Source: Pseudorhodobacter sp.
GTDB lineage: Bacteria > Pseudomonadota > Alphaproteobacteria > Rhodobacterales > Rhodobacteraceae
Assembly (NCBI GenBank): GCA_024641255.1
Contig: JAHEDL010000143.1
Coordinates: forward strand, 1-29,550
DNA: 29,550 nucleotides
Direction: 5' to 3'
Below the pieces are notes generated by a model. It did no database searches, was not told the origin of the DNA, and saw only the letters and a program-made list of their open reading frames with translations. How positions within the stretch are numbered: the stretch's first letter is position 1; each line of letters begins with the position of its first letter. Positions 7,832-23,107 of the stretch are shown in pieces. The position numbers and the translations under genes are program-made.

Positions 7832-7843
7832 GGAGCCTCAAAT

Positions 7844-7892
7844 AAAAAAAACCCGCCCGAAAATCCTCCAAGTGCGAAGATTTCGGGTCGGG
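7844..7892 (-). terminator. Intrinsic terminator in the leader of the AmiC-like operon (attenuator)
   Basis: On the minus strand the arm 7892-7879 (CCCGACCCGAAATC) pairs with 7865-7852 (GATTTTCGGGCGGG), with one or two bulges and a 13-base loop. A run of eight T follows at 7851-7844. It points into the AmiC-like gene, whose ATG is only 12 bases further, so it terminates before the operon and not after a gene. With an ANTAR antiterminator encoded second in the operon, this is best read as a regulated attenuator. Confidence 0.85.
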
Positions 7893-7916
7893 CCTGATTG
7901 CCGCTCGGCGTTGAGC
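7891..7916 (-). promoter_or_regulatory. Putative ANTAR target: two adjacent hexaloop hairpins
   Basis: On the minus strand, 7916-7903 forms a GCTC/GAGC stem closing the six-base loop AACGCC. Its A at loop position 1 and G at position 4 match the published ANTAR loop rule. Directly after it, 7902-7891 forms a GGC/GCC stem with the six-base loop AATCAG. Position 1 fits the rule, but position 4 is C. The second hairpin shares bases 7891-7892 with the 5' arm of the terminator, so forming it would compete with termination, as known for EutV/AmiR-type leaders. The short stems and the imperfect second loop keep this a proposal. Confidence 0.5.
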
Positions 7917-8338
7917 CGTATTTGCACCAAGGGTGTTCCGAGAAAACCGCTACGTCAAGTGCCCTGATCTGATAGGCCGAATGTTTCGGCTATGTTTTAA
8001 ATTTGTTTCAAGAATTTGCCATTCTGTTGGGCAGTTCCCGCATGCCGGGCGCAAGATCTTTGTCCGAACAGAAGCAACCTTATCGTTCTTTAACGATATA
8101 GCCCTCGCCATCGGCATGAGGCGCGCGCAACTGCGCACTAACTTCCCATGAAACTTGCCATTCACGCCAAAGACTTTCAAGAATGCGCCTTATGACCCTT
8201 GCGGCTGTTGTGACAGCGTAAGACTGGGCGTTCGACTTGCAAGGACAATCCGAGCGCACCCGGACTGGGGCATATTCCCTCTTGACCGTACAGTGGGTGC
8301 TAATGGCCGACTATTGCTTCGCCGATGACATCCGACAT
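7917..8338. other. Intergenic region between the acyltransferase operon and the amide operon
   Basis: No convincing gene is seen. The region must contain the promoter and early leader of the minus-strand AmiC-like operon and the 3' end of the minus-strand acyltransferase operon. A TTGACG at 7958-7953 could be a -35 element, but there is no good -10 at 16-18 bases. I see no clear terminator for the acyltransferase operon. The short open frames here have poor starts and composition unlike the neighbouring genes. Confidence 0.5.
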
Positions 8339-9727
8339 TCAACAGTCGATGACGCCGTCGAGGCCGAAGTCTGCCATGGTGCGCGAGGTTGCCTGACGCA
8401 GCGCATCAGTTGTGGTGAGCGCGGGTTCAAGCTGACAGGCTTCGATGCAAAGGGACACAGCGTTGGCATAGTGAGAGGCTACAACCACTAAATGTCCGTG
8501 CGAGCGTTGAAGGTCGCGGCGCAATACGTTTACATCCACGGCGCGCATCAGCAGGCGGGCGCAAGGTGCACCGTCAATCTGCGCGAGCCCATCTGAAAGC
8601 GTACCAAGGTTCGAACAGCTGACCGGCAAATCTTCGGCATAGGAAAAGAAGTTGTTTACCATCGCTGTGGTGATGCCACGCGGCATCCAGGCGACGGCAG
8701 GCAGAAGTGACGTCTGGGTGGACTCATCGCTGTCGCGTGCGCTGCGAAGCATCGCCATGTGTAGCTTATTCAAAGGCCGCAGGTCGGTGCAAAGGCGCTC
8801 TGGTGCGACAGTCATCGTGCGAAAATCGATTGCAAGTGCGCGCTCGTCCTCAAGCCCGCGCCGTCTATCGATGGGGACAAGCAGGCTAACTGCACCATCG
8901 GAAACCCGGCGGCGGCCCATGTGCATGGCCAAAGTTGCCACAAAACCCGGGAGCAAGGTGTTTGGACGGCCGCCAAGCCGACGGGCGCAGGCATCCCATG
9001 CCTGAAAGTTGATGGTCACGGCTAGAGAGGGAAGATTTACGACCGTTGCCGGGTCAGCAGGCGCGGCGGCGAGGGGCATTTGCGGCGCCCTTCGCCGCAC
9101 CAAGGATCTGACCGGGATCTTGCGGGCAATCGCGGCAAGTGCGGCAACCGTGCGCGGCGTGTCTGATACGACTTGCAGGAAATCCGATATGCATCCGGCC
9201 AGCAAGCCACGCGCGCCCTGCGGCAAATAGGGGTTAGCAAGCTGTGTTCGGGTTGCAGCCGCTTCGATGGCGCGCAGCGCACCGATGCCGTCGATCACCA
9301 AATGCGAACCCAGAATACTTACGGCGGTGGTACCATCGTCGAAGCGCTGCATGTCCAGGTGCCATGCCGGACCCGTGGTGGGGTCAATGGTCTGGCGCGC
9401 CTGCTGGTTGGCCCATTGCATCAATTCGGATCGTTGCAGCGGCTTGTGGTCTTGTGTGAGTGTCTGGTGCGGGCCATTCGGCTTTACCCAACGGGGCCGG
9501 CCCAACCGCAGGACCGATGGCGCAATAAGGCGGTTGAATGGCAAAGCAGCCAGCCGTTCGTTCATTTCATTCAGTGCAGCGAGGTTCACCTCACGGTCGT
9601 AAAGCCAGATGCACTGCATCAACTGTGCCCTGCCCGTGGCCCGGAATAGCTCGAAGGCCACTTGATCAACCCAAGCGAGCCGGTGGCGCATATGCGCAGC
9701 TGTGCGGGACGCCGGTTTTTCAGGCAT
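8339..9727 (-). CDS. Condensation/WS-DGAT/Pap-type acyltransferase (paralogue A)
   Basis: About 462 residues. The HxxxDG active-site signature of CoA- and carrier-dependent acyltransferases is present as SHLVIDG, with the first of the usual two histidines replaced by serine. It follows a DPTTGPAWHLD segment shared with the other paralogues. A C-terminal LPVSCSNLG motif resembles the SN-G motif of WS/DGAT-like proteins. It is collinear with the proteins at 9720-11084 and 13047-14435, and all three start with a related D-Q segment and share a GRxxWV motif near residue 75. The start at 9727 is chosen because it gives an 8-base overlap with the upstream stop; a longer frame runs into the neighbour. 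It probably transfers an acyl group to a hydroxyl of a lipid or sugar acceptor. It could equally act in a peptide-like condensation, and the substrate is unknown. Confidence 0.72.
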   Translation of the reverse strand: MPEKPASRTAAHMRHRLAWVDQVAFELFRATGRAQLMQCIWLYDREVNLAALNEMNERLAALPFNRLIAPSVLRLGRPRWVKPNGPHQTLTQDHKPLQRSELMQWANQQARQTIDPTTGPAWHLDMQRFDDGTTAVSILGSHLVIDGIGALRAIEAAATRTQLANPYLPQGARGLLAGCISDFLQVVSDTPRTVAALAAIARKIPVRSLVRRRAPQMPLAAAPADPATVVNLPSLAVTINFQAWDACARRLGGRPNTLLPGFVATLAMHMGRRRVSDGAVSLLVPIDRRRGLEDERALAIDFRTMTVAPERLCTDLRPLNKLHMAMLRSARDSDESTQTSLLPAVAWMPRGITTAMVNNFFSYAEDLPVSCSNLGTLSDGLAQIDGAPCARLLMRAVDVNVLRRDLQRSHGHLVVVASHYANAVSLCIEACQLEPALTTTDALRQATSRTMADFGLDGVIDC

Positions 9728-11084
9728 CGAAGAATTCGCCGGAGAGGCCATACTGGGCCAGAATCTGTTCGACCAGCATGTGAAGGTGGCGGCTTTGGGT
9801 AACAACGCCGGGCTGATACGCTACGAAATTCAGGTGCATATGATCTGAGACCACGCCGCCAAAGAGGGTCGCCACCCCCTGACGCGCTTCGATCGCTTCC
9901 AGTGAAACCTGACGGTCGGTGCCACGAAAACAAACTTCGTCCGCATCGGCGCCGTCAATCCTAAGAATCTCCTGAGGCAATTTCCCTAAATACGAACATG
10001 TGACAGGCAATTCTGACAGCGCGGCAAAAGCCAGATGGCCCGCCCTTTCTACGACAGATGAGGGCACGAAAGGCACTAGCGGCAGCAGCATATCTATCGG
10101 ATCGGTTTCTTTCCTTGTCCGAAGCAATGTGCTCCGCAGACGTCGCTGAAGTTCTGTCAAGCGCCTATCGGGCGCATCGACCGACATCTTGAGCGAGGCT
10201 AGCGAGACGCAGTTTCCCGCTGCGTCCGACTGCCCTTGCCGCAAGTTGACCGGAATTAACATCGTCACGTCGCCGTCGCGCACCCGGCCAAGGGCGGAAG
10301 CAAAGGCGGTCGTAATGGCGGCCAGCAGCGTGAGCCGGTTCGCCCCAAGATTTTTGGCCTTTGCATCCCACACGGTAGTAGGAATGCGCAGCGGGATCGA
10401 GGCAAATGCGATTGTGCGGTCAGGCGTGGTCTTTAGCAGTTTCTTTGAAACCGCACGGCTTGACGTTAAACGCGGGAAGCGAAACATCCGCGCCGCGCGG
10501 GCGAGAGCACGGAACGTCACGGGCAGATCCTGCACTGTGCGCCAAAGTTCGGAAACGATATCCGCGACCGAGTGTTGCGCTGAGATCGCGGGATAGGCTG
10601 GCAACACTGGATTAGCAGCGACGGCTTCGGCCACGGCAAGCGCAACCGAAGTTCCGTCTGCAATGCAATGGGATACGACGAGCGAGACGATTGTATCGCC
10701 GTTGGTAAGGTGTTGGGCCGTCAACGTCCAGGCCGGCCCGTGCTCAGGATCCAGTGGGAGCTCTACCTGTGCGTCCAGCCATGTTTGCAGCCGCGCCGGG
10801 TCAAGTGGCGCTGTGGCCGCTATGGCCGACAGTGCAGGCGGGGCGACTACCCATTGGTGTCGCCCAAACGGCAACAGCGCCGGGCGGATGAGACGGGCCA
10901 AACGGCCATGTGCAAGATTGTCGCGGAACTTTTCCAGTGCGCCCAGATCGACGGGTCGATGATACCGCCAAGCGACTTGGATGACGGCCTGATGCCCGGC
11001 TGCAGTATGCCCCAAGTGAAGCGCCTGGTCCATAAAGGACAGAAAGGAAGGCGGTTGCCGAAACCTGTGCTTTGGAAATGGCAT
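9720..11084 (-). CDS. Condensation/WS-DGAT/Pap-type acyltransferase (paralogue B)
   Basis: About 454 residues. It carries DPEHGPAWTL followed by the catalytic-type motif SHCIADG, and a C-terminal LPVTCSYLGKLP motif. There is no signal peptide or membrane span, so it should be cytoplasmic or membrane-associated. ATG 11084 is preferred over an upstream start because it lies 5 bases after the stop of the preceding gene and opens the segment that aligns with the paralogues (MDQALHLGHTAAGHQ). No clear ribosome site is visible, so translation may be coupled. It is the middle gene of a three-acyltransferase operon. The reaction is inferred from the superfamily only. Confidence 0.72.
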   Translation of the reverse strand: MPFPKHRFRQPPSFLSFMDQALHLGHTAAGHQAVIQVAWRYHRPVDLGALEKFRDNLAHGRLARLIRPALLPFGRHQWVVAPPALSAIAATAPLDPARLQTWLDAQVELPLDPEHGPAWTLTAQHLTNGDTIVSLVVSHCIADGTSVALAVAEAVAANPVLPAYPAISAQHSVADIVSELWRTVQDLPVTFRALARAARMFRFPRLTSSRAVSKKLLKTTPDRTIAFASIPLRIPTTVWDAKAKNLGANRLTLLAAITTAFASALGRVRDGDVTMLIPVNLRQGQSDAAGNCVSLASLKMSVDAPDRRLTELQRRLRSTLLRTRKETDPIDMLLPLVPFVPSSVVERAGHLAFAALSELPVTCSYLGKLPQEILRIDGADADEVCFRGTDRQVSLEAIEARQGVATLFGGVVSDHMHLNFVAYQPGVVTQSRHLHMLVEQILAQYGLSGEFFDA

Positions 11085-11089
11085 CGCGT

Positions 11090-12505
11090 TCAGCGGCGGC
11101 CAACGCGGGCGGGCGTCGATGCACCGGCGACCTGACGGCAAATGTTTTGAAACATCTCAACATAGTTTGTCATTGAAGTGCGGGCTATTTCATTTGCAGG
11201 GTATGACGCCATCAAGCTTAGACCGCGTTGCGTCCGAACGAACCAGATCGCAACCTGTGCCGCCATGCCCCGGTTTACATAGGTCCGCCCGTTCACCTGT
11301 TGCCAGACCCGTGCGAGGTGCGGATTGGAGGGAAGACGGTCAGCATCGGTATAAGAGAGCATCACGCCGCCCGTCGCAACAGGGCGGATCGTCGGCAAGT
11401 CGGCCGCCAACTCCAGCACCCGCTCGATCGGAGTGTCGGCAAGCGGCAGCCGTTCTTCGAATATGCGCTGCGCGGTGGCCGCAAGCGTTGGGAACGCCTG
11501 CGCGTCGACGTCGAAATCGATTGGAACCACGCCCATGCACCAGCCCGCCATCCGGAACGCCTGCGGCGATTTCCGTGTCGATGCAGGCGTGACGACGCTG
11601 TAGCGCCCGTTGCCGGCGAGTGCACGTTCGGTCAGCGCCGCGCAGGCGAGCAAACCGCCCAGCATGCGCGCGCCCGAGGCTTCGCAGGCGTATGCGAAGG
11701 CCGCCGCCCCAGTGTGATCAAGGATATCAAGCGTCACGTAATCGGCTAAGCAACGATCTTCCAGCAGACCCAAGGCAAGTGGAAAAGCTGGCATTCGGCC
11801 CCGATTGCGCTGAAGGAACGCAACCCATTCCGCAACGCCGGGATCGGCAAGCGTCATTTTGGCGGTCCGCAGGCGTTGATTGGTGCAGTAATCCATATAG
11901 CGCGCCGCAGAGGCGATCCGCAGCGGCAACGCGCCGTCGGTAAGGGCGCGATAGGCTGCGTGCACCTCTTGCAGCAATAGTGGGACGACGGACATATCCG
12001 CATGCAGATGGTCAATGCAGGCGAAGCAGGTGAAGCCAGTTTCACGCTGCAGGATGCCGAAACGGAAGCAATCCCATTCGAATGGTGCCGGGGTCGCCAT
12101 AGCTTGATTCCGCCAATCATCCAAGCCCATCTCGCCCAAGGGCGTAGGTTCCATCTGGATGGATTTCGGGTCTGACAGCACGTGCCGCACAAGCGCGTCG
12201 CCGCGATCCTCGAACCAACTGTGGTATGTGTCATGCCTGCGCAGATGGTCGGTCACGACCTGGGTCATGACTTGCAGGTCGCATTGGCCGGGCTCTTCCC
12301 ATTCGACGATGATCAGCCGCGCCATCTCTTCGTTGCGGTGTGCGTAGGCGCGAAAGGCGCTAAGATGCTGCGCCTGTTCGTAGCTTGGCGGCAGGTCGGA
12401 AACAGGGGCGACTCGCGCCTGTTCCACGGTCGCCTTGGATGGAAGCCAGATGGTCGCCTTGCCAAAATCAGCTACGCCGTCGTGCTTCATGCACAAATCA
12501 GCCAT
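11090..12505 (-). CDS. Condensation-domain acyltransferase, PapA-like (paralogue C, divergent)
   Basis: A 471-residue protein, more distant from the other three. The HxxxD catalytic core is present as DHLHADMS (about residue 165), where the usual glycine after the aspartate is methionine. An N-terminal LPPSYEQAQHLSAFRAY segment, a DHLRRHDTYHSWFE segment and a late TGGVMLSYTDADRLP segment fit polyketide-associated (PapA) and NRPS condensation proteins. PapA1-PapA3 of mycobacteria use this fold to acylate trehalose. ATG 12505 has AAGGA about 9 bases upstream. It is the first gene of the minus-strand operon with paralogues A and B, and is divergent from paralogue D. A distinct acceptor or donor from that of A, B and D is likely, but this is an inference. 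Confidence 0.72.
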   Translation of the reverse strand: MADLCMKHDGVADFGKATIWLPSKATVEQARVAPVSDLPPSYEQAQHLSAFRAYAHRNEEMARLIIVEWEEPGQCDLQVMTQVVTDHLRRHDTYHSWFEDRGDALVRHVLSDPKSIQMEPTPLGEMGLDDWRNQAMATPAPFEWDCFRFGILQRETGFTCFACIDHLHADMSVVPLLLQEVHAAYRALTDGALPLRIASAARYMDYCTNQRLRTAKMTLADPGVAEWVAFLQRNRGRMPAFPLALGLLEDRCLADYVTLDILDHTGAAAFAYACEASGARMLGGLLACAALTERALAGNGRYSVVTPASTRKSPQAFRMAGWCMGVVPIDFDVDAQAFPTLAATAQRIFEERLPLADTPIERVLELAADLPTIRPVATGGVMLSYTDADRLPSNPHLARVWQQVNGRTYVNRGMAAQVAIWFVRTQRGLSLMASYPANEIARTSMTNYVEMFQNICRQVAGASTPARVGRR

Positions 12506-13046
12506 CGGCTTGTTCCTTGAGCCGTTGACGTCTGTTCAAAGCGGTTACCCCGCAGCGATTGGGTGGATCGCGACGTTCCTTCAAGGGCATGGAATTGACA
12601 CGCAGGATGCGGCGTTTTCCGACAGCTGCAGTTTCAATCACGTCTCTACCTGTGGTAAAATTTTCGCCATGACGCATTCTTGCGCAACGTTCGTTCGGCT
12701 TGGCAAGCTGTTTTGATCGTAATACGTCTTATACTAATTCTATAAGAATATGTGCTTGAATATTTAAGTCGTATTTCGATCTGTTTTATCTTTTCTGCGC
12801 GACGCGAAATTTGGCCAAATCGTAAGTCTGACTTGGCAGGAATCCCAGTGTGAATGGGGAAACTGCAAGCGGGGGAAATCGCAGCCTTTGTCTGTTTCAG
12901 AAGCATAGAGGCAGATTTAAATGGCAAACAAAGCGTCTAATTGATCCGCAAACAACGCTGATGATGCTTGGTTTCGTCCTGCGGCAGCGGTGTTTAGCAG
13001 GCGGCGGTTGCTACATCGCGCGGCAGCAATGTGAAGGGACGGAGGC
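12506..13046. promoter_or_regulatory. Divergent promoter region between acyltransferase genes, with an inverted repeat
   Basis: These 541 bases separate the start of paralogue C (minus) from paralogue D (plus) and must drive both. The middle (about 12715-12840) is markedly AT-richer than the surroundings. At 12727-12747 a perfect 7-base inverted repeat, TCTTATA and TATAAGA with a 7-base spacer, could be an operator. AAGGGACGGAGG precedes the ATG at 13047 and serves as its ribosome site. I could not assign -35/-10 boxes with confidence, and open frames here look spurious. Confidence 0.5.
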
Positions 13047-14435
13047 ATGAGCGTTCGATCGGCGGAAAAAAAGCGCGTGCGGCGCAGCGGCGCAATCGAA
13101 CCCGAGGTCGATTTAGGCAACGTTTTGTGCTATGCGGACCAAGGATCATTCTTGGGCCTGCGTGCGCTTGGGCGCCAGCCAACGCTTCATCTTACCTGGA
13201 TTTATCCGCACCCGCTCGAAAGGGCCGCGGTATTGCAATTTGCCCGGCGCATCGCACAGGGCTTGCTTGGGCGCGTCGTGCAGCGTTCGGCTTTGCCTTG
13301 GGGGCGGCACCGCTGGGTGGCCAGTCCCGTGCCGCCGGCGGTGACGTGGCGCGAGACGCCAGTTGCGATCGAGGCCCTGCAGGCGACGCGAAGCGATTTG
13401 TTCGATTTGCCTATCGACCCCGAACACGGCCCCGGTTGGCGGCTGGTGGTGCAGCCCCTGAATGGTGGCGGCACGGCCTTGTCGATGCTGGTGTCGCACA
13501 CCATTGCCGACGGGCAAGCTTGTGTGCAGGCCCTTGTCAGCGCAATCACAGGCCAAGGTCTTGTCCATGGCCTTCCGGCGCGGTCGTGGCGATGGTCTCC
13601 TTGGATGTTGGTGCGCGACAGTGCGCAAAGCTTGCACAGCCTGCCTGCGGCATGGCGGGCCGTGAACGAACTTTGGCGCAATGTGCACATGATCAAACCC
13701 GGAAAGCTGCGGCCGGTGCCGCCATTGCGGCACCGTGAAGATACTTTATCCGATCCGGTCGTGGAGGTTCCTCTGGTGTGCGTGGGGATGGACGCGGGAC
13801 TCTGCGAACAACTGGCAATGGATAGGGGCGTTGCAAGCAACACTCTGCTTTTGGCTTTTGCAACAAGGCTTGCCTTTCGATTAGGCCGTGTCGATGCCGC
13901 CGGACAAGTGAAACTGGCGCTGCCGGTCAGTAACCGTCAACCGGGAGATCGGCGTGGCAACGCGTTGCAGCCAGCCAGTGTGGTGGTGGACCCCACGGTT
14001 TGCCACGCTGATCTGCCAGGGTTGCAACGGCAGGTCAGGAGAGCCTTTGCTGATATTCTGCGCAATGGCGACGGGATATCTATGCTTGCTCCACTTGTGC
14101 TTTATGTGCCGCGGTGGCTGGTTCGCAAGATGGAATGGCACGCGCTTGGGGCGGACCTGCCCGTGGGTTGCAGCATGTTAGGCAAACTTCCCACCGAACT
14201 GGGCAACCCGGTTGGCAAAGGTGAGCTTATTCAGTTTTCTGCGCTGGAGCGCTATACGAAATCCGCACTGGAACGGCTGGAAGGGCTACTGTTTATTGTG
14301 AGCTACCGTATTGGCGACCGTCAAATCGTCACTGTGTCCGGCTACCAACCGGATCGCGCAACGACCCGTGCCACGCTGGTTCCCGTTGTGCGCGCGGCGC
14401 TGGACGACATAGGTCTTGCGGCGACGGTTGTCTAA
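13047..14435 (+). CDS. Condensation/WS-DGAT/Pap-type acyltransferase (paralogue D)
   Basis: A 462-residue protein close in layout to paralogues A and B. It has an N-terminal ADQGSFLGLRALGRQP segment, LPWGRHRWVASP near residue 90, DPEHGPGWRLVVQPLN, then the active-site motif SHTIADG, and a C-terminal LPVGCSMLGKLP motif. The C-terminus (ALDDIGLAATVV) aligns with the ends of A and B, so the gene is complete although an insertion-sequence remnant begins only 2-3 bases after its stop. It is divergently transcribed from the other three, which suggests shared control. The acyl-transfer role is inferred from the superfamily. Four such proteins imply several acyl positions or substrates. Confidence 0.72.
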   Translation: MSVRSAEKKRVRRSGAIEPEVDLGNVLCYADQGSFLGLRALGRQPTLHLTWIYPHPLERAAVLQFARRIAQGLLGRVVQRSALPWGRHRWVASPVPPAVTWRETPVAIEALQATRSDLFDLPIDPEHGPGWRLVVQPLNGGGTALSMLVSHTIADGQACVQALVSAITGQGLVHGLPARSWRWSPWMLVRDSAQSLHSLPAAWRAVNELWRNVHMIKPGKLRPVPPLRHREDTLSDPVVEVPLVCVGMDAGLCEQLAMDRGVASNTLLLAFATRLAFRLGRVDAAGQVKLALPVSNRQPGDRRGNALQPASVVVDPTVCHADLPGLQRQVRRAFADILRNGDGISMLAPLVLYVPRWLVRKMEWHALGADLPVGCSMLGKLPTELGNPVGKGELIQFSALERYTKSALERLEGLLFIVSYRIGDRQIVTVSGYQPDRATTRATLVPVVRAALDDIGLAATVV

Positions 14436-14437
14436 CA

Positions 14438-14834
14438 CGCTGCTGAAAAAATCCACCCTGGGCGTCGGACCTGGAAAATGATTCACATTCCGGGCGGTTT
14501 GGTGGGGGAAGACGATGCGAAGATCGGACGAGACGAGCGGGTCGCTGTTCAGCTATGTCGATCTTGAGGAGCGCATTCCGGCCCGGCATCCGCTGCGCAA
14601 GATCCGACAGGTCGTCAACTATTCGCTGGTCAGCCTTGATGCTGAGTTCGCGCCGGTTTATGCCGACTTCGGCCGTCCGCCGATTGCGCCGGAGCGGTTG
14701 ATCCGGGCCAGCCTGCTGCATCACCCGGCATCCCGCCTACGCCGTCTCGCAGAAATATGCCGCAAGAGGGTCGAGGAGCCGTTCGGCTGGGCCAAGACGG
14801 TCGGACCGATGGCGCAGACCATGCGGCGGGGGCG
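14438..14834 (+). mobile_element. Remnant of an IS1182-like (IS5-superfamily) insertion sequence
   Basis: The element seems to begin at about 14438 with CACGCTGCTGAAAAAATCC, which resembles the terminal repeat of this IS group. A transposase start follows at 14515. It has lost most of its interior and its right end, and abuts a second IS remnant at about 14835. Confidence 0.6.
14515..14834 (+). pseudogene. Truncated IS1182-like transposase with internal deletion
   Basis: The N-terminus (MRRSDETSGSLFSYVDLEER and the following ARHPLRKIRQVVN and FGRPPIAPERLIRASLL) is the usual start of this transposase. At about 14720 it jumps straight to the C-terminal part. That part reads HPAYAVSQKY in the next frame and RKRVEEPFGWAKTVG in the original frame, so a deletion of some 250-300 codons was followed by frame damage. 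Homology ends at about 14834. It cannot be functional. Confidence 0.75.
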
Positions 14835-14835
14835 G

Positions 14836-15042
14836 CCTGCAATCTTGAGCAGCCCAATTTGCCCGCGATCGCCGTCAGTGCCACAGCTTCGCTTTGATAC
14901 TCATCGCGGTGTTGCATCGCCAACCGAACCGCACGCTCGCGAAACTCAGGGGAATACGACTTCGAGGTCTTCTCTTTGATGTCTGTTCCATAACGGGCAA
15001 GTCTCCGAGAGTTTTGCCCTCCGGTAAATCCGGGGCGGTTCA
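14836..15042 (-). mobile_element. Remnant of an IS3-family element: terminal repeat plus start of OrfA
   Basis: On the minus strand the end at 15042 reads TGAACCGCCCCGGATTTACC, which matches the terminal inverted repeat style of IS3-family elements. The OrfA N-terminus follows from about 14980, with KTSKSYSPEFRERAVRLAMQ and then a segment ending IAGKLGCS. The frame has no good start codon, and the element stops at about 14836 where the other IS remnant begins. OrfB is absent, so this is a scar and not a mobile element today. Confidence 0.68.
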
Positions 15043-15087
15043 GGTCTAAGGGCGATGCTCGCCGCAAGGATGGCATGTTGGGCGCGA

Positions 15088-16254
15088 TCAATTAGCCCGT
15101 AGCGCATCGACGATTTTCATCCGCGAGGCACGCAGCGCCGGAAGGAAGCCGCCAAGAAACCCCATCACGATTGCGAAACACAAGGATTGCAGAACGATGC
15201 CAGGTGTCAGAACAAACCGGAAGGCAAGCTCGGACAACGACGCCCAGTTCAGAGTCGTAACCTTTACCAGCATCATCAGCGAGGCAAGTGACAGGCCGAC
15301 GACCCAACCGACCATCCCGAGCAGCATAGCCTCGGCCAGAAAGGCGACGAGGATACTGGAGCGCCGGAAACCAAGAGCCCGCAAAGCCCCGATCTCGCGC
15401 TTTCGGCTGGCGACGGCCGCATACATCGTGATGGTCGCACCGATAACGGCGCCGACTGAGAAAAGAACCGAAAGCGTAACACCAAGGATCTGGATGAACC
15501 CCGACATCAGGCGCGACTGTTCTTCGTAAAAAACGCCCTCGCGCTTGGCTTCGACGGTAAGACGGCGATCTGACTCGAGACGTGCCTTGATAGAGTTGAA
15601 ACCGGCGCGGCTCGCAAGGCGGACCACGACCGAAGAGTAGGCGTCGCGTCGGAACGCCTGCATGAACTGCGCGTTGTCCCCCCAAATCTCGGAGTCAAAC
15701 CCACTGCCGCCAGCGTCGAACTGCCCGACCACCTGCCAATCCCGCTGGGCAAACCGGAGGGTCGATCCCTCCTGAAGACCAGTAAACCGCCCGACAAGCG
15801 CGCCGCCGATCATGATCTCGTTTGACCCCGGACGGAACATGCGCCCCTTTGCTATGTGTATCTTTGGACGCAGGGTCAGAACTGCCGCACCAACACCGCG
15901 GGTCACGATGTTGCTTGTCTGACCAGACCCCTGCCTTGGCAAGGCGATCAATACCACCACTTCCTTTGATACGACCGGCGCGCCATCGGAGCCAAGCAGC
16001 ACCTCGGGCTGGCTCTCGATGATGCCTGCCTGTCTGCGATCAACCATGCTTTGGATTTCGACCTCTGCCGAGCGGCGCACGAAGATAGCGTTCGCGTCTT
16101 CGCCAGTTGAAACCAACGTCTGCTTCAACCCAGAGTCAAGCATCAGCACTGCTGCAAAGACAAACAGCACAAGGGCCATACCGCCCGCCGTAAGCGCAGT
16201 GGTGATCTTGCGTGTGCGAAGGTTCCGCAGGCTGTAGGCAAGTAGCAAACGCAT
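15088..16254 (-). CDS. ABC exporter permease, FtsX/MacB-like (second permease)
   Basis: About 388 residues starting MRLLLAYSLRNLRTRKITTA. The layout is one N-terminal membrane span, a periplasmic domain (about residues 45-255) and three C-terminal spans, as in MacB, LolCE and DevC. The sequence SRKREIGALRALGFRRSSIL, which precedes a late span, is the typical FtsX-family coupling helix. ATG 16254 lies 2 bases after the stop of the first permease (TGATCATG) and is preferred to a longer frame. It is the last gene of the exporter operon and ends just before the IS scar. The partner permease at 16257 suggests a heterodimer. Confidence 0.88.
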   Translation of the reverse strand: MRLLLAYSLRNLRTRKITTALTAGGMALVLFVFAAVLMLDSGLKQTLVSTGEDANAIFVRRSAEVEIQSMVDRRQAGIIESQPEVLLGSDGAPVVSKEVVVLIALPRQGSGQTSNIVTRGVGAAVLTLRPKIHIAKGRMFRPGSNEIMIGGALVGRFTGLQEGSTLRFAQRDWQVVGQFDAGGSGFDSEIWGDNAQFMQAFRRDAYSSVVVRLASRAGFNSIKARLESDRRLTVEAKREGVFYEEQSRLMSGFIQILGVTLSVLFSVGAVIGATITMYAAVASRKREIGALRALGFRRSSILVAFLAEAMLLGMVGWVVGLSLASLMMLVKVTTLNWASLSELAFRFVLTPGIVLQSLCFAIVMGFLGGFLPALRASRMKIVDALRAN

Positions 16255-16256
16255 GA

Positions 16257-17417
16257 TCAGCCCACTGCCCGAAGGCCCTCGATGATGTTGACGCGGGATG
16301 CCCGCCACATCGGAAAGACCGCCGAAAGCACGCCCACAGTCAGCGCCGCGACAGCTTGCAACGCAACGGTGTCTTTGCTGACGACCAAAGTCGGGAAAAG
16401 CGCCTTGGTCAGCACGGCGATCTGCGCGGCAACAAGGGGTGTGAGCCAGATGGCGACAGCAGCGCCAACAAGTGCAAGCACGACAGACTCCGCAAGGATC
16501 AGACTTGCAACATAGCCCGGTCCGAAGCCCAGAACCTTGAGTGTGGCGTATTCTGCCAGTCTTTCACGTGCCGTCATGGCCATCGTGTTCGCCATCACAC
16601 TTAAGATTATAAAAATCACCACGAAAGAGACAACGCGGATGGAAATAAGGATCGATTCAGTCTGCTTCATGAAGCCGATCTGGAAGGCGCGCTCTGTCTC
16701 GGTGCGTGTTTCGGCGAAAGAGTTGCGGAAGGTGTGGTCGATGGCTTCGCTTACTTCCGCGACCCGGTTAACGTCGGCCACGTCCACAACGAACACACCC
16801 ACCTGTTCGGCTTGCGCTTTCGAACGCATGCGGAGCGTTTCGTTCAGATAGTCCCAGCGGAAGAACAGTTGGGTCGTGTCGATCTTCGGATCGCGGCCAT
16901 CGAAGATGCCCTTGACCACGAATTCCCAAGGGCCGGGATAGATTGTTCCCTCTAGCTGCACCACGTCGCCCGGTTTCAGGCCGAAGCGGTTGGCAAGCTT
17001 GCGCCCGATGATGGCGCCACGGCGATCATGCTGAAATTCGCGCAACACATCCTCTGGTACGACATTCTCGGGATACATGCGAAAATAGCTCGCGCTGTCG
17101 ACGGCGTATTGTGGAAAGAAATTCTTGGCATCCTTGTAGATGCCGCCGAACCAGGTCACGAACGTAACGTCCCGGACCCCATCGACCTCGCGGATGCGCT
17201 TTTCATAGGCACGCGGCAAGGGTGAACTGAACGAAATGGAGTTCCGCGTGATTAGACGCGATGCCACTGCGCCATCGACGCCCGCGAACCACGCCTCGAC
17301 GATGGTCTGAAGCAGACCGAAAGCCAGGATCGCCGCGACAATCCCGGCAACCGTAAGCGCCGAACGTAGCCGGTTTCGCAGCGAATTACGCGCGACGAGC
17401 TTGAAGAACTGCATCAT
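16257..17417 (-). CDS. ABC exporter permease, FtsX/MacB-like (first permease)
   Basis: A 386-residue protein beginning MMQFFKLVARNSLRNRLRSA, with one N-terminal span, a large periplasmic domain and three C-terminal spans. The ARERLAEYATLKVLGFGPGY segment is the FtsX-type cytoplasmic helix. It is 9 bases downstream of the ATPase gene and 2 bases upstream of the second permease. Such permeases move lipoproteins, glycolipids, peptides or drugs from the inner membrane or periplasm outward, together with an adaptor protein. DevC of heterocyst glycolipid export is a relevant family example. The cargo here is inferred from the neighbouring acyltransferase and glycosyltransferase genes. Confidence 0.88.
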   Translation of the reverse strand: MMQFFKLVARNSLRNRLRSALTVAGIVAAILAFGLLQTIVEAWFAGVDGAVASRLITRNSISFSSPLPRAYEKRIREVDGVRDVTFVTWFGGIYKDAKNFFPQYAVDSASYFRMYPENVVPEDVLREFQHDRRGAIIGRKLANRFGLKPGDVVQLEGTIYPGPWEFVVKGIFDGRDPKIDTTQLFFRWDYLNETLRMRSKAQAEQVGVFVVDVADVNRVAEVSEAIDHTFRNSFAETRTETERAFQIGFMKQTESILISIRVVSFVVIFIILSVMANTMAMTARERLAEYATLKVLGFGPGYVASLILAESVVLALVGAAVAIWLTPLVAAQIAVLTKALFPTLVVSKDTVALQAVAALTVGVLSAVFPMWRASRVNIIEGLRAVG

Positions 17418-17426
17418 GCGTAGAAG

Positions 17427-18158
17427 TCAGTCATGGGGTAACTCCACCCGCTGCGACAGCTCACCCTTTTCAAGCTGCATGATCGAGCGAGCGTGCTCCG
17501 CCGCGCGGCGGTCATGCGTCACCATCACAATGGTCTTGCCCATTTCGCGATTCAGCCGCTGCATGATGGCCAGAACGTCTTCTGCGGACTGACGGTCGAG
17601 GTCGCCGGTAGGCTCGTCGGCCACCAGCACTGTCGGGTCTGTTACGATTGCCCGCGCAATGGCGACGCGTTGCTGCTGCCCACCCGAAAGCTCGGATGGG
17701 AAATGGCGAACACGATCACTAAGGCCGACGAGGTCAAGCGCAAGCAACGCGCGTTCACGGCGGTCGCGCCGGCCCAGCCTTGTGAGGGTGAGAGGCAGCT
17801 CCACATTTTCAAGCGCGGTAAGCACAGGCATCAGATTGTAGAACTGGAAGATAAATCCCACGTTCGCCGCACGCCAGTCTGCAAGTTCGGCCTCTGGAAG
17901 GCGGGTGATATCGGCGCCGCCCATCGTGATCGATCCGCCATCCGGCGTGTCGATCCCGGCAATGAGGTTAAGCAATGTAGACTTCCCCGAGCCTGATGGA
18001 CCCATCAGGGCCAGAAACTCTGCCCGGCGTATGTCAAATGTTATGTCCGAAACCACGGGGATGATCTGACCACCACGTCGATAGCTTTTGCTTACATGCC
18101 GCAGTGCGATGAGGACATCAGCCCCTGACGCAGCTCCGGTACGGGGAAGTATGCTCAC
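17427..18158 (-). CDS. ABC exporter ATP-binding protein, MacB/LolD/DevA-like
   Basis: A 243-residue ATPase with Walker [10 protein letters not shown] (residues 53-61), Q-loop region [19 protein letters not shown], signature LSGGQQQR (157-164), Walker [13 protein letters not shown] (177-188) and the switch histidine in [22 protein letters not shown] and the DEPTGDLD box are typical of the LolD/MacB subfamily of extrusion ATPases and not of importers. It overlaps the adaptor gene by 4 bases (ATGA). Confidence 0.94.
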
Positions 18159-19402
18159 GTTGCTTCCTCGTTCACCGCATGGCCGTCGGTCAGTCCTTGC
18201 GGTGGGCGGATGACAACGCGCGTGCCCTGATCAAGGCCGTGGACTTCGATCTGGTCACCAATCTTGGCACCACGTTTCACGGGCCGCATCCTGGCCTTGC
18301 CATTCTCGACCACAAAAACCTGCAGCTTACCTTCCGCCTCGAACAGGGCTGAAGCAGGCACGGCGAGAATCGGCTTGTGCTCTGCTTCGGTCAGCCCCCG
18401 ATCCAGAAAAGCTGCCCGCGCGCTCATCTCGGGAAGGATACGCGGATCATGTTGCCTAAAGCGGATCTTGACAAGTGTAGACGCTTTGGCACGGTCCACC
18501 GTCGGCACCATCCGGCTAACAACACCTTCGAATCTTTGCCCCGGAATAGCGTCCAGCTGGATTTCAACCGGCTGGCCTTCGTGGATGGCCAGATACGATG
18601 CCTCGGCCACGTCAGCCTCGACTTCCAGTGTATCCATGTCCGCGATCGTGACCACCGCACCCCTGGTGTCGACAGCCTGCGAGAACGGCGTGATCGTATC
18701 GCCCACACCGGCGTTCAATGTCAGCACGACACCATCGAAGGGAGCACGGATGAATGTTTGATCAAGGGCGACATCCGACACGCGGAGGTTTGCCTCGGCG
18801 ACTGCAACTGCCGCCTCGTATCCCGCAACTGCGGCCAAGGCCTTGCCACGAAGTGCTGTGGCGCTGTCATGGTCTGCAGCGCTAACAAGCTTCTTGTCGG
18901 AGAGGACATCGGTACGGGTGAACGCAAGTTCCGCTTCCACCAGATCCGCGCGCCCCATGCCAAGATTGGCCTTCGCAACCAGTACATTGGCTGCTGCCAG
19001 ATCGCGCATAGCCTGTGTGTCGCGGTTTTCAAGCCGGGCGATCACCTCGCCTTTACGCACTTTGGTCCCTTCTGTCACGCTCAGCCATTCAAGACGGCCT
19101 GTCGCCTTTGATGCCACGGACGCCCTGCGCTGCGCTACGACGTAACCTGTCGCATTAAGCAGGGTCAGCGCTTGTGCGGGATAGACCGTGGAGACGACGG
19201 CGGTTTCGACCGCAAGTGGCGCGCTTTGTCGCCACAGCCATATCGCGCCGGCAAGGCACATCAGCACTGACAGTAAAATCAGACGCCGATGAGCGCGGCT
19301 CAGCTGTTTGCTGTGCTGCGATCCGGCGCTGCGATCTATCGAAAGTGCGGAGAGGTCTCGGAGCGGTGTTGCGCCATCAACAGCGCCTTTTTGCAGGTTC
19401 AT
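18155..19402 (-). CDS. HlyD/MacA-family periplasmic adaptor of the ABC exporter
   Basis: About 415 residues from ATG 19402. A TTG 14 codons earlier is possible, but neither start has a clear ribosome site. A cytoplasmic N-tail is followed by one membrane anchor (about residues 41-57, LILLSVLMCLAGAIWLW). Then come a biotinyl-lipoyl-like half (VTEGTKVRKGEVIARLENRD), a short helical hairpin (residues about 130-210), the second lipoyl half (FIRAPFDGVVLTLNAGVGD) and beta-barrel domains. This is the membrane-fusion architecture of MacA/DevB. It heads a four-gene exporter operon divergent from the glycosyltransferase. No outer-membrane TolC-type gene is present in the window. Confidence 0.9.
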   Translation of the reverse strand: MNLQKGAVDGATPLRDLSALSIDRSAGSQHSKQLSRAHRRLILLSVLMCLAGAIWLWRQSAPLAVETAVVSTVYPAQALTLLNATGYVVAQRRASVASKATGRLEWLSVTEGTKVRKGEVIARLENRDTQAMRDLAAANVLVAKANLGMGRADLVEAELAFTRTDVLSDKKLVSAADHDSATALRGKALAAVAGYEAAVAVAEANLRVSDVALDQTFIRAPFDGVVLTLNAGVGDTITPFSQAVDTRGAVVTIADMDTLEVEADVAEASYLAIHEGQPVEIQLDAIPGQRFEGVVSRMVPTVDRAKASTLVKIRFRQHDPRILPEMSARAAFLDRGLTEAEHKPILAVPASALFEAEGKLQVFVVENGKARMRPVKRGAKIGDQIEVHGLDQGTRVVIRPPQGLTDGHAVNEEAT

Positions 19403-19809
19403 AGATTGATCACGAGTTTCCAGAAATCCGGGCGCTTGGCCCAAGATTAGAGCCGAGGTTGCCGCGATTCATTTTGCGTTTCAGCGTAAGCGAAACCGAT
19501 CCATTCGGCGACACGTCCTCGGTTTCCGCTCCTTTCCGATGGATTTAAGGCGACGTTAAAACGCTATCCGCGGAAAGGCAAGAATCGGACAGCAATCAAA
19601 CACCGAGGTTTTCGCGTCGTGTTGCTAAACCTACGGGATTTGGAAAAGGGAAACCGAGTATTTCAATTCATCACAGGGCGTAAAATTGTGATATTAATCA
19701 ATGTCGGCAATCACCTATACAGTCCGATTTAATAGCAATAAAGCGAAGCCTGAACGTGCCCACCGAGAACCTTGCCTGCGCTTGAAACCCTAAACAACAA
19801 AGCTTGCCA
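19403..19809. promoter_or_regulatory. Divergent promoter region with repeated CGGTTTC boxes
   Basis: These 407 bases separate the exporter operon (minus) from the glycosyltransferase gene (plus). The motif CGGTTTC recurs: on minus at 19500-19490 (ATCGGTTTCGC), on plus at 19518-19529 (CTCGGTTTCCGC) and on minus at 19659-19648 (ACTCGGTTTCCC). A related GAGGTTTTCGC lies at 19605-19615 on plus. Iterated boxes in a divergent control region suggest a shared regulator site. The stretch 19680-19740 is AT-rich and probably holds the plus-strand promoter, but I cannot fix its boxes. Confidence 0.45.
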
Positions 19810-21051
19810 ATGAAATTCGCCATTGCAGTCCACGGCACACGCGGCGACGTCGAACCCGCAGCGGCCCTCGCCCTTGAATTACAGGGTCGTGGTCATTACG
19901 TGACGATGGCTGTGCCCCCCAATCTTGTCGGTTTCACCCGGTCGGCTGGACTGCCTTCAGTCGCGGCTTACGGGCGGGATTCACAGCAGCAATTGGAGGC
20001 TGAGCTTTTTCGCAAACTGTGGACGTTGCGTAATCCGTTCACTGTGTTGCGGCAGGCAAGAGCGTACCTGATGGATGGCTGGGCCGAAATGAACGAAACG
20101 CTCACAAGCGTCAGTGCAGATGCCGACCTGATATTGACTGGCACAACCTATCAAGAGGTGGCCGCCAACGTCGCCGAGGCCAGGGGCATCCCTTTCGCTG
20201 CCCTGCATTATTTTCCCGCAAGGGCAAACACCCATATCCTGCCGGTTCGGTTTCCGCGACGTTGGGCGAACTGGCTTTGGGCGATCGCGGAATGGGGACA
20301 CTGGCGTCTGTTGAAGCCGGCCTATGATGCGCAGCGCTGCACGCTCGGGCTGCCCGTCTCAAAAATCCGGGCGGCCCGCCGGATCGTCGATGGGGGGGCG
20401 TTGGAAATTCAGGCCTATGACAGGGTATTTTTTCCCGGACTAGAAGAGCAATGGGGTGGAAAAAGACCGTTGGTCGGCGCGTTGACCCTAGAGTTGACCA
20501 CTGCGGGTGATGCCGCTGTCGCGTCCTGGATCGCAGAAGGCAGCCCGCCGGTCTATTTCGGATTTGGCAGCATGTCAGCCGACCACATCAAGCGGTCTCT
20601 ACCGATTATAACCCAAGTATGCCAAGAACTTGGCCTGCGCGCGCTGATATGTCTGGGTGCGCTGCCGATTGATGGCATCGCCTGTGCCGACGACATCATG
20701 TTGGTTCCGTCGGTAAAGCATGCCGATGTGTTTCCGCACTGCCGGGCCATTGTCCATCATGGCGGCTCGGGAACCACGGCTGCCAGTGTTCGCTCCGGTG
20801 TGCCAACATTGGTGCTTTGGGTCGGGGCTGACCAGCCTGTCTGGGCGAGACAGGTCAAGCGCCTGGGCGTTGGCACTTCACGTCGCTTGTCCAGCATCAC
20901 TGCGGACACGCTGCGCGAAGACTTGCAATCGGTTCTAAAGCCCGCATGTGTGTTCAGGGCGCGAGAGGCGGCAAGCTGGATGACGTCTCCGCGCCAAAGC
21001 GTTTTGGTCACGGCTGACCTGATCGAAGCGCGTGCGGCCCAACGCGCGTGA
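19810..21051 (+). CDS. GT1-family glycosyltransferase (UGT/glycopeptidolipid Gtf-like)
   Basis: About 413 residues. The N-terminus MKFAIAVHGTRGDVEPAAAL is the acceptor-side Rossmann start of bacterial GT1 enzymes (macrolide, rhamnolipid and mycobacterial glycopeptidolipid glycosyltransferases). The C-terminal nucleotide-sugar site is intact: PVYFGFGSM, then HHGGSGTTAASVRSGVP (about residues 316-332), and PVWARQVKRLGVG. The ATG at 19810 is chosen over a TTG two codons earlier because it opens the family N-terminus. The GAP-like gene follows in the same direction, and the exporter operon is divergent. It probably adds a sugar to a lipid acceptor in the cytoplasm. The donor and acceptor are unknown. 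Confidence 0.88.
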   Translation: MKFAIAVHGTRGDVEPAAALALELQGRGHYVTMAVPPNLVGFTRSAGLPSVAAYGRDSQQQLEAELFRKLWTLRNPFTVLRQARAYLMDGWAEMNETLTSVSADADLILTGTTYQEVAANVAEARGIPFAALHYFPARANTHILPVRFPRRWANWLWAIAEWGHWRLLKPAYDAQRCTLGLPVSKIRAARRIVDGGALEIQAYDRVFFPGLEEQWGGKRPLVGALTLELTTAGDAAVASWIAEGSPPVYFGFGSMSADHIKRSLPIITQVCQELGLRALICLGALPIDGIACADDIMLVPSVKHADVFPHCRAIVHHGGSGTTAASVRSGVPTLVLWVGADQPVWARQVKRLGVGTSRRLSSITADTLREDLQSVLKPACVFRAREAASWMTSPRQSVLVTADLIEARAAQRA

Positions 21052-21100
21052 TGCTGAACCGTTTGCACAATCAAGCAAGCCCCTTCGAAAGCTGCAACAG

Positions 21101-21799
21101 ATGTGGATGACTGTCTTGCTGCTGGCTATTACAGTCAATTTCGAACCAACGCGGATCGGGTTGGTTCCTTTACTTTTGGCCCGCGACAAACCGTTGCTAC
21201 AGCTTTGGGCCTTCCTTGCTGGCAGTGTGACAGTTAGCTTGACGGCCGGATTTCTGGTTCTTTTTGTGTTCCACCGTGACCCGTTTGGCATTGGTAGGTT
21301 TGACCCCGGCTGGATCCAGATTACACTTGGCATAATTGCTTTGGTTTCATCAGTGATCATACTGCAGCGGTGGAAAAACACGCGCCCAAGAAAAAGCTTG
21401 GCATCCGCTGATAGGTTGTCGCTGAGTACAAAACCAAGCTTGGGTCGCCGTTTCGCCGAACTGGTGCGCCGTATCCTTCGAAAAGACAGCGCCCCGTTGG
21501 TGGCTGCACTGGTTGGCATCTGCGTTGGACTGCCCTCGGTCGATTATTTGGCGTTGCTGGCATTCATTGCTAAATCCGGCACGCCTCCCTTGGATCAGGC
21601 GGCCGCTTTGATCACGTTTGTACTGATCGGTAGTTTGGTCGTCTTTCTGCCGCTTGTCGGGCTGATGGTGGCGCGCGAACGACCCTTAGGTCGCCTACAT
21701 CGTTTCGGCCAGTGGATCAGATTGAGATGCCACACCCCGTTGCATTATGCAGGGCTGCTGGCAGTCGCCGGTTGTTTACTGATTGGTCTTGGGCTGTAG
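21101..21799 (+). CDS. GAP/Sap-family (sulfolipid/glycopeptidolipid-addressing) integral membrane protein
   Basis: About 232 residues and six hydrophobic segments. The start MWMTVLLLAITVNFEPTRIG, with a conserved E-P-x-R-I/L-G after the first span, and the GLPSVDYLALLAFI segment before the later spans, match the GAP/Sap family. That family is best known from mycobacteria: Gap in glycopeptidolipid and Sap (Rv3821) in sulfolipid SL-1 transport. A GTG at 21032 overlapping the glycosyltransferase gene would add 23 non-hydrophobic residues. ATG 21101 is preferred because it matches the family N-terminus. It lies 50 bases after the glycosyltransferase stop, presumably co-transcribed. In mycobacteria the partner exporter is MmpL; here an ABC exporter is the only candidate. 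Confidence 0.78.
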   Translation: MWMTVLLLAITVNFEPTRIGLVPLLLARDKPLLQLWAFLAGSVTVSLTAGFLVLFVFHRDPFGIGRFDPGWIQITLGIIALVSSVIILQRWKNTRPRKSLASADRLSLSTKPSLGRRFAELVRRILRKDSAPLVAALVGICVGLPSVDYLALLAFIAKSGTPPLDQAAALITFVLIGSLVVFLPLVGLMVARERPLGRLHRFGQWIRLRCHTPLHYAGLLAVAGCLLIGLGL

Positions 21800-22515: not shown

Positions 22516-22626
22516 CTGCGCAGGACCCTGTGCAGGGCGGCGGGCTTCAAGTTTGGCGAGGCGGCGGGATAGGGCCGTTATGTGTTATAACATAGCAAAC
22601 TTCTAGGCCTGCGCAAACGGAGCGCG

Positions 22627-22641
22627 CATGTTTTTGCCACA
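22627..22641 (+). repeat. Left arm of an inverted repeat flanking the DUF3291-like gene
   Basis: CATGTTTTTGCCACA here is the inverse of TGTGACAAAACATG at 23051-23064, with one mismatch and one base length difference. A third copy, GTTTTTGTCACAGAT, lies at 23088-23102 in the same orientation as this arm (14 of 15 identical to 22630-22644). Confidence 0.5.
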
Positions 22642-22684
22642 GATTTGGGTTTGTGGGGGCGAGAAGTGTCACGATGGCATGGCT

Positions 22685-23098
22685 TCAGGCTTTCACGATC
22701 CTGCCTTTGGCAGCCCAAATTTCAGGCACCTGCTCCCATGTGGGCGGTATGTCACACTCAAAGCCGAAGGTGCGCCCCGTGGCCAGTCGGTGGAAGGCCT
22801 TCATCGCCCCCAGATGCGCTCCGGTGACAAGATAGGCGCGCATCGAGGCCTCGCTATCCCAGACGGTCAGGGTGTGGTGGACCCCGCCGATCTTGCGGGC
22901 TTGGGCGCGGATCAATCCCGAGGCAGCATAGGCCTGCTGCATCGACCGGACGGCGTGCCACCAAAAGGCTGGGGCCAAGAAGGGCGATTTCAACTGTAGT
23001 CCTGTGATCGAGACATAGGGCAAGGTGACTTCCGTGACGTGAGGGTGAGGTGTGACAAAACATGGCCTACTTCTTACAGACAAAGCAGTTTTTGTCAC
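22685..23098 (-). CDS. DUF3291-like (ferredoxin-fold monooxygenase-like) protein
   Basis: Up to 137 residues from a GTG at 23098; the real start may be a TTG at 23023. The conserved-looking part begins LPYVSITGLQLKSPF and continues through a FWWHAVRSMQQAYAASG helix, the VHHTLTVWDSEASMRAYL strand-helix, and a C-terminal PPTWEQVPEIW motif. This is the dimeric alpha/beta-barrel pattern of DUF3291 and spheroidene-monooxygenase-like proteins, whose function is mostly unknown. The right inverted-repeat copy (23051-23064) falls inside the extended N-terminus, which argues for the shorter form. It stands alone among decayed genes. Confidence 0.6.
   Translation of the reverse strand: MTKTALSVRSRPCFVTPHPHVTEVTLPYVSITGLQLKSPFLAPAFWWHAVRSMQQAYAASGLIRAQARKIGGVHHTLTVWDSEASMRAYLVTGAHLGAMKAFHRLATGRTFGFECDIPPTWEQVPEIWAAKGRIVKA
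23051..23064 (-). repeat. Right arm of the inverted repeat flanking the DUF3291-like gene
   Basis: TGTGACAAAACATG, inverse to the copy at 22627-22641. Together with TTTTGTCACA at 23090-23099 it also forms a perfect 10-base inverted repeat with a 29-base spacer, so it might be an operator pair and not an element end. Confidence 0.5.
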
Positions 23099-23107
23099 AG
23101 ATAGGGG

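Follow-up and report, generated by a model that had tools for sequence, protein, structure and literature searches.

Introduction

Acyltrehalose lipids of the lipooligosaccharide (LOS) type are generally regarded as a trait of mycobacteria, linked to the mycomembrane and to pumps of the MmpL family. LOS are described as glycolipids with a trehalose base that carry polymethylated fatty acids as acyl groups, and disruption of papA4 in Mycobacterium marinum is reported to abolish them (PMC5706390); their transport in the same species is described as needing MmpL12 (PMC12507525). In M. smegmatis, MSMEG_4727 is given as a Mas-like polyketide synthase (PKS) for LOS (PMC8125055), and the LOS island MSMEG_4727-4737 as a locus that alters phage adsorption (PMC11139207). 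PapA3 is reported to acylate both the 2- and the 3-position of trehalose, and a supporting role of Sap in the translocation of sulfolipid has been suggested (PMC4183827). Here we analyze a cassette of this type in a Gram-negative bacterium. It lies on a contig of 29,550 nucleotides (JAHEDL010000143.1, assembly GCA_024641255.1), hereinafter the window, from the alphaproteobacterium Pseudorhodobacter sp. (Rhodobacteraceae), and comprises four acyltransferase genes (AT1–AT4), a family 1 glycosyltransferase (GT1), a Sap/GAP-family membrane protein and a four-gene ATP-binding cassette (ABC) exporter. We propose that this is likely an actinobacterial cassette, acquired horizontally, that makes a trehalose lipid of the LOS/acyltrehalose kind with several acyl chains and added sugar; that it is homologous to the mycobacterial LOS/acyltrehalose type and was transferred appears almost certain.

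In the open PMC literature we found no paper on an acyltrehalose or a mycocerosic acid synthase in Bradyrhizobium, no title, among those listed, on such a lipid in Bradyrhizobium or Rhodobacteraceae, and no paper connecting MSMEG_4729 and MSMEG_4730 with LOS. The portions of the LOS papers that we compared name no function for the AT2- and AT1-type genes described below.

Results

An acyltransferase block shared with Bradyrhizobium and mycobacteria

A scan of species genomes with an alignment of AT2, AT1, AT4 and a Tsukamurella homolog confirmed 233 loci, and our analysis covers the 80 that scored best. The query patterns were thus three window proteins and one Tsukamurella protein, and the counts given here pertain to these 80, with lower-scoring loci outside them. 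Each locus covers up to ~21 kb and some are ended by contig ends, so that absences of neighbors are lower-bound statements; the score thresholds for gene presence were chosen by us. The set comprises 11 alphaproteobacterial loci (10 from Bradyrhizobium or Bradyrhizobiaceae and one from a metagenome-assembled genome [MAG], L015), one from a Gemmatimonadetes MAG (L018) and 68 titled actinobacterial, of which 64 are titled Mycobacterium or Mycolicibacterium. A contig titled as a Bifidobacterium breve MAG (L021) contains the mycobacterial block and falls among the mycobacteria; it is probably a mislabeled bin.

AT3, AT2, AT1 and AT4, together with the whole exporter, are present in every one of the alphaproteobacterial loci (11/11). 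A run of AT3 followed by two genes of the AT1/AT2/AT4 family on one strand recurs in all of these, in the Gemmatimonadetes locus and in 51/68 actinobacterial loci; we cite gene runs for the latter because the scores of AT1, AT2 and AT4 cross-match one another. The actinobacterial loci further contain AT3 (55 of 68), a PKS (51), GT1 (43), MmpL (41), FadD (26), Sap (23) and ileS (22). The mycobacterial ones are presumably LOS loci, an assignment that we base on gene content and the map position of ileS rather than on a match to MSMEG_4727-4737. In the alphaproteobacterial loci a 2100-residue PKS of the Pks2/Pks5 type accompanies the block in 9/11 and GT1 in 5/11, and none has Sap, MmpL or FadD over the thresholds; one open reading frame (ORF) of a Bradyrhizobium locus (L014) loosely clusters with FadD at 57 bits, below the threshold of 150. 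GT1 and Sap are adjacent in 14 of the 80 loci, and the window's GT1 and Sap are respectively 66% and 48% identical to the copies of L020, and 65% and 53% to those of L023. When the whole genomes of the Gram-negative carriers were searched (11 of 12, all but L045), GT1 was recovered in five and Sap over the cut-off in none, the L015 genome giving a Sap match of 21 bits, below the cut-off; likewise, Sap (PF11139) exceeds the cut-off in 0/14 control genomes. The joint presence of the exporter and the GT1–Sap pair is, among these Gram-negative carriers, peculiar to the window.

One PapA2-type enzyme and three paralogs of a further acyltransferase family

AT3 is a PapA2-type acyltransferase as judged from its sequence: residues 8-460 align with the PapA2 structure 6aef (E 3.2e-98), it scores 642 bits for the AT3 family profile and 51 bits for Pfam Condensation, and the H and D of the HxxxD motif are kept in 20/20 aligned members, the window's copy among them. 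AT1, AT2 and AT4 are paralogs with 27-30% identity to each other, for which we found no NCBIfam match at E 0.1 and no Pfam match at E 1, save that of AT4 to PF02458 at E 0.15. The H and D of HxxxD are again kept in 59/59 aligned members of this family, including the three from the window. The predicted structure of AT2 (pLDDT 89.9) has a fold that matches 8s6l, 1q9j and 6chj (condensation/PapA5/WS-DGAT), placing these proteins, on the strength of a model, in the condensation/WS-DGAT superfamily, with the fold of AT1 and AT4 assigned by homology to AT2 only. In sequence searches the AT2 profile found 8s6l as its best PDB chain (E 0.0011), the next chains being unrelated, and WS/DGAT models match family members at E 0.001 in 30/59 (TIGR02946) and 9/59 cases (PF03007). 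A profile comparison between the AT2 and AT3 families gave nothing (probability 0.2%); therefore the link between the two is drawn from fold and motif.

The genes named by the first-pass annotation of the window correspond to ORFs at the positions in Table 1. Its four condensation-superfamily acyltransferases are borne out, AT3 by the PapA2 match and the others by homology, motif and the modeled fold of AT2; so are the intact GT1 motif and the GAP/Sap assignment. On the minus strand (8339-12505), the ORF of AT2 overlaps those of both AT1 and AT3, and the listed start of AT1 is probably too far upstream. The listed Sap ORF overlaps the end of GT1; its likely start is near 21101, 49 bases past GT1.

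Table 1. Features of the acyltransferase–exporter cassette in the window.
Feature	Position	Strand	Characteristics
AT1	8339-9805	-	Condensation/WS-DGAT-superfamily acyltransferase (predicted), motif HLVIDG; AT1 clade in trees
AT2	9720-11141	-	Same family as AT1, motif HCIADG; modeled PapA5/condensation fold
AT3	11090-12505	-	PapA2-type acyltransferase (by sequence), motif HLHADM
Divergent intergenic stretch	12506-13046		541 bases; site of otsA and otsB in relative L015
AT4	13047-14435	+	Same family as AT1/AT2, motif HTIADG; divergently transcribed
Insertion sequence remnant, probable	14847-15042		90% identical to DNA of same-genus genome G005; ORFs there without Pfam match
Exporter permease 2	15088-16308	-	MacB_PCD + FtsX
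Exporter permease 1	16257-17417	-	MacB_PCD + FtsX
Exporter ATPase	17427-18158	-	Walker A, LSGGQ
Periplasmic adaptor	18155-19444	-	HlyD/RND_mfp type
GT1 glycosyltransferase	19804-21051	+	HHGGSG at residue 318; EryCIII-like C-terminal domain, 63 bits
Sap/GAP-family membrane protein	21032-21799	+	PF11139, 102 bits (cut-off 35)

A probable origin of the block in Actinomycetota

In a tree of the three paralogs, each paralog clade holds both actinobacterial and Gram-negative rows, and within each the rows from Gram-negative bacteria make up a single clade that is nested among the actinobacterial ones. Since the paralogs root one another and the Gram-negative copies are nested, the sequences point to Actinomycetota as the most likely source of the block; the trees with actinobacterial homologs that the first-pass annotation had proposed thus place the Gram-negative AT1, AT2 and AT4 inside actinobacterial diversity. 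A single clade of all actinobacterial rows of a paralog is rejected in each case, with p 0.0035 for AT2, p 0.0002 for AT1 and p 0.029 for AT4, in a test on 54 selected rows from 15 actinobacterial and five Gram-negative loci and the window; the paralog labels were assigned by gene order and the groups named after the tree was seen, so that the p-values are not blind, and the long branches of L018 and L068 may attract each other. In the AT3 tree the phyla separate and no direction is given. The GT1 tree places the alphaproteobacterial copies beside Mycobacterium sp. ZLKRG22, which, with a single very distant outgroup and without the L020 copy, we count as agreeing evidence only. AT3 and the other acyltransferases of the window group with those of alphaproteobacterial isolates.

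An ABC exporter stands in place of MmpL

The exporter belongs to the MacB-type ABC superfamily by virtue of its two MacB_PCD + FtsX permeases, ATPase and adaptor. All four genes accompany the acyltransferases in 11/11 alphaproteobacterial loci, at 65-85% identity and in two gene arrangements, as against 0/69 other loci. Because the permeases and adaptor have no counterpart in the actinobacterial loci (0/68), the exporter would have joined the block on the Gram-negative side. MmpL shows the converse distribution (0/11 alphaproteobacterial versus 41/68 actinobacterial loci), in agreement with the first-pass proposal of an ABC exporter in place of MmpL. The same annotation had called the exporter complete and MacAB/DevBCA-like: its four genes are intact, but no outer-membrane channel was recognized among the 24 Pfam-scanned window proteins, a set that does not include the left-flank ORFs 3-1832, 2713-4329, 4358-5278 and 5278-6156. 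Scores against the NCBIfam cut-offs are 206.7/295.8 for DevA, 55.2/129 for DevB, and 36.7 and 23.3/290.35 for DevC.

Trehalose as candidate acceptor, and the missing polyketide synthase

Trehalose is suggested as the acceptor because otsA-otsB directly precede AT4 in two distant relatives, L015 and L018. In L015, otsA, otsB and AT4 follow each other on one strand, with AT3-AT2-AT1 divergent, and in L018 the order AT3, AT2, AT1, otsA, otsB, AT4 occupies a single strand; the two loci are 56% identical in otsA and 46% in otsB. The layout of the window is that of L015 minus otsAB plus GT1-Sap, and we found no remnant of otsA or otsB in the window.

No PKS of the Mas/Pks2/Pks5 type, FadD or MmpL was found in the window, and within the stretches covered a PKS is likewise absent at L015, L017 and L018. 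A Bradyrhizobium locus (L012) exemplifies the enzyme found in other relatives: its architecture is KS-AT-DH-ER-KR-ACP, and it passes the NCBIfam Pks2 equivalog model with 2595 bits (cut-off 2400). Hence the first-pass statement that the window has no PKS or nonribosomal peptide synthetase (NRPS) is correct, yet a PKS belongs to the block in 9/11 alphaproteobacterial loci. The longest PKS match in the window's own genome (C533; KS-AT-KR-DH-ACP-TE) was rejected as the missing partner: this long match has no ER at the limit used, bears a thioesterase and is not Mas-like. The genome also has several large PKS-like ORFs (L111; contigs C126, C158 and C454), one of them beside a GT2-like gene. With no branched-chain PKS in the window, ordinary fatty acyl-CoAs are the likely donors.

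Host genome and surrounding genes

The host genome (3.08 Mb, 641 contigs) is 85% complete, and the window is one whole contig (C63, 1-29550). Bases 1-7963 are collinear with, and 87% identical to, the same-genus genome G002; four further genomes show 72-74% identity across the greater part of it, and in a comparison against plasmids its widest match was Rhodobacter sp. CZR27 (74%). These likenesses to G002 and CZR27 indicate a Rhodobacteraceae-like alphaproteobacterial host. The likeness to same-genus DNA ends at 7963, just ahead of the cassette. Among the 14 other genomes of the genus, the stretch 22600-29550 has no match at E 1e-30 and AT3 was not found; beyond the genus, AT3 occurs in 0/294 other family genomes (E 1e-5), and the AT1/AT2/AT4 family in 0/384 other genomes drawn from the class. 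As these regions and genes are unmatched among relatives, the cassette appears to be part of an island specific to this strain, with a left end near 8 kb and its right boundary outside the window. Weak AT3-like matches in NRPS-size ORFs, in 1/60 relatives (E 8e-5) and 2/298 genomes of the phylum (E 1e-7), were not counted as AT3. The co-occurrence of the genes that the first-pass annotation had looked for in other Rhodobacteraceae is therefore not seen there, but they are adjacent across Bradyrhizobium and mycobacteria. None of the three results that this annotation had named as refuting its proposal (unrelated acyltransferases, another family for the GAP-like protein, no co-occurrence across genomes) came about.

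To the left of the cassette (1-7831) lie an ABC transporter, an acetamidase/formamidase and AmiC/AmiR-like regulators, with similar stretches on rhizobial and Rhodobacteraceae plasmids. To its right are a thermonuclease-like (SNase) gene, seemingly in two ORFs (23108-23707; PF00565 match confined to 23108-23323), and a pyruvate kinase fragment (23922-24218; PF00224, 40 bits) that is probably a decayed gene. Near the window end (25100-29400), an HprK-like kinase (weak match), a glycosyltransferase-like protein (weak match) and a divergent asparagine synthase, which scores 211 bits for the lasso cyclase model (cut-off 525), are perhaps a lasso-peptide-like set or another of the ribosomally synthesized and post-translationally modified peptides; the search recognized no precursor.

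Discussion

A proposed pathway and the alternatives

Starting from the observed gene identities, synteny, transfer direction and exporter in MmpL's place, we infer an acceptor, an order of steps, a product, an exporter substrate and a place for the lipid in the envelope. AT3, as a PapA-type enzyme, would be the first to acylate trehalose with a fatty acid; up to three further chains would come from AT2, AT1 and AT4, and GT1 would attach a sugar to the acylated core. Sap may aid presentation of the lipid at the inner membrane, from where the ATPase, the two MacB/FtsX permeases and the adaptor would carry it across the periplasm in the direction of the outer membrane, in the role of MmpL. The product is probably an acylated, glycosylated trehalose, and there is a good chance, about three in four by our reckoning, that it leaves by the ABC system. 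Of the acylated glycolipid or glycopeptide envisaged in the first-pass annotation, the glycolipid is supported and nothing supports the glycopeptide, which we discarded as a product: the window ORFs include no NRPS, and the condensation-type proteins stand alone.

Several observations weigh against this proposal. In the window's own genome, at 85% completeness, we found no OtsA, and neither of its two GH13 enzymes passes the cut-offs for TreS, TreY or TreZ, for which reason trehalose is put forward as a predicted acceptor. otsAB occur in just 2/80 loci, both without GT1, Sap or PKS in the stretch covered. The lack of FadD in the window counts in the same direction, as does that of a Mas/Pks2-type PKS in the assembled part of the genome. 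Only 5/68 actinobacterial loci unite AT3, PKS, GT1, Sap and MmpL within the stretches covered; the substrate of the exporter is assigned solely from gene adjacency; and, to our knowledge, no lipid of this kind has been measured in any Gram-negative carrier.

GT1 enzymes take varied acceptors, and this, with the lack of a trehalose synthase in the assembled genome and the fact that no convincing sequence score ties AT1, AT2 or AT4 to a characterized enzyme, would fit acylation, by re-purposed actinobacterial enzymes, of some sugar or glycoside in place of trehalose (e.g., a different disaccharide, or a glycoside of a hopanoid or carotenoid). We nevertheless regard such an acceptor as unlikely: the nearest solved structure to AT3 is the trehalose-acylating PapA2, otsA-otsB stand directly before AT4 in both distant relatives, and the window shares one layout with L015, otsAB and GT1-Sap aside. 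A distinct concern is that the exporter could be an unrelated neighbor for drug or peptide efflux, with the lipid leaving by another route helped by Sap alone. Its adaptor and ATPase do resemble general MacAB/LolD-type proteins, the adaptor passing only the general RND_mfp cut-off and the ATPase none among the 25 matches listed, and L018 has the acyltransferases and an MFS gene without this exporter; but the retention of all four genes with the acyltransferases throughout the alphaproteobacterial loci, in two arrangements, makes an unrelated exporter rather improbable.

A chimeric metagenome contig, or a misbinned one, is very improbable, notwithstanding the fragmentation of the genome into 641 contigs, the end of same-genus likeness at 7963 just before the cassette, and the unmatched stretch from 22600 onward. 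The left flank is 87% identical to same-genus DNA over 7963 bases, and the internal element at 14847-15042 adds a same-genus match, though weak support because such elements move. Moreover, the acyltransferase copies group with those of alphaproteobacterial isolates; therefore, a real cassette of the alphaproteobacterial type would be present even if the contig were misjoined.

Implications of a proposed acyltrehalose cassette

If the trehalose-lipid proposal holds, block transfer with another pump would show which parts of a LOS-type system are portable, the Bradyrhizobium isolates would be tractable carriers for testing each acyltransferase, and candidates would be named for acylation steps of LOS to which the LOS papers compared here assign no enzyme in the portions covered. 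Regarding the last, AT1, AT2 and AT4 may represent an unrecognized acyltransferase family that also supplies the later acyl chains of mycobacterial LOS, which forms part of the joint reading given even chances at the end. As the LOS island of M. smegmatis changes phage adsorption (PMC11139207), a comparable role at the cell surface could be tested in Bradyrhizobium.

Comparison with known systems

The first-pass annotation had likened the locus to those for mycobacterial sulfolipid, acyltrehaloses and glycopeptidolipids. The mycobacterial type is upheld, with the LOS/acyltrehalose locus, rather than that of sulfolipid or glycopeptidolipid, as its nearest counterpart. AT3 resembles the trehalose-2-sulfate acyltransferase PapA2 over residues 8-460 (E 3e-98) with HxxxD kept; unlike the sulfated-acceptor setting of PapA2, the window has no sulfotransferase model matched in its 24 Pfam-scanned proteins, and we set sulfolipid aside as the product. 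Sulfotransferase-linked PapA-like genes do occur on plasmids of Sinorhizobium and Cupriavidus, but at a distance (22.8-29.3% to AT3). On those plasmids (L005, L007) the PapA-like gene lies near a sulfotransferase, a GMC oxidoreductase and an aminotransferase, perhaps for a separate, possibly sulfated acyl product. With respect to PapA5 and WS/DGAT, AT1/AT2/AT4 form a separate family: about half of its members match WS/DGAT models, weakly, and those of the window match no Pfam or NCBIfam model significantly.

With the MacAB and DevBCA exporters the window's system shares MacB_PCD+FtsX permeases, a LolD-like ATPase and an adaptor; it differs in having two separate permeases and in missing the cut-offs for DevA, DevB, DevC, MacA and MacB alike. 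A locus of Tsukamurella tyrosinosolvens (L004) shares a GT1-like protein (31%), one AT2-family protein and a PapA-like protein (25% to AT3), and has two further proteins of similar size that are annotated as acyltransferases and have no BLAST match to AT1/AT2/AT4; it differs by the absence of Sap and of a MacB-type exporter among its 30 listed features. On this 'plasmid 9' the GT1-like, AT2-like and PapA-like genes stand beside acyl-CoA carboxylase genes, and it may be a further glycolipid locus.

The closest likeness is to the mycobacterial LOS locus (M. smegmatis MSMEG_4727-4737; M. marinum papA4/pks5/mmpL12). It differs from the window in its PKS, FadD and MmpL, in place of which the window has a four-gene ABC exporter and a Gram-negative host; the cassette is accordingly not a strict member of the LOS-locus class, and its present parts suggest a LOS-like way of working. 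Shared with it are a PapA-type gene with two AT-family genes after it, an order that recurs in 51/68 actinobacterial loci, and a GT1 with Sap beside it in the vicinity of the PapA-type gene; the PKS extends to 9/11 alphaproteobacterial relatives, and ileS is near in 22/68 actinobacterial loci. The joint reading, to which we give roughly even chances, is a mycobacterial-type acyltrehalose glycolipid rebuilt for the Gram-negative envelope, in which a synthesis block from Actinomycetota was paired with a MacB-type tripartite exporter instead of MmpL, yielding an outer-membrane lipid in some Bradyrhizobium and in a rare strain of Rhodobacteraceae.

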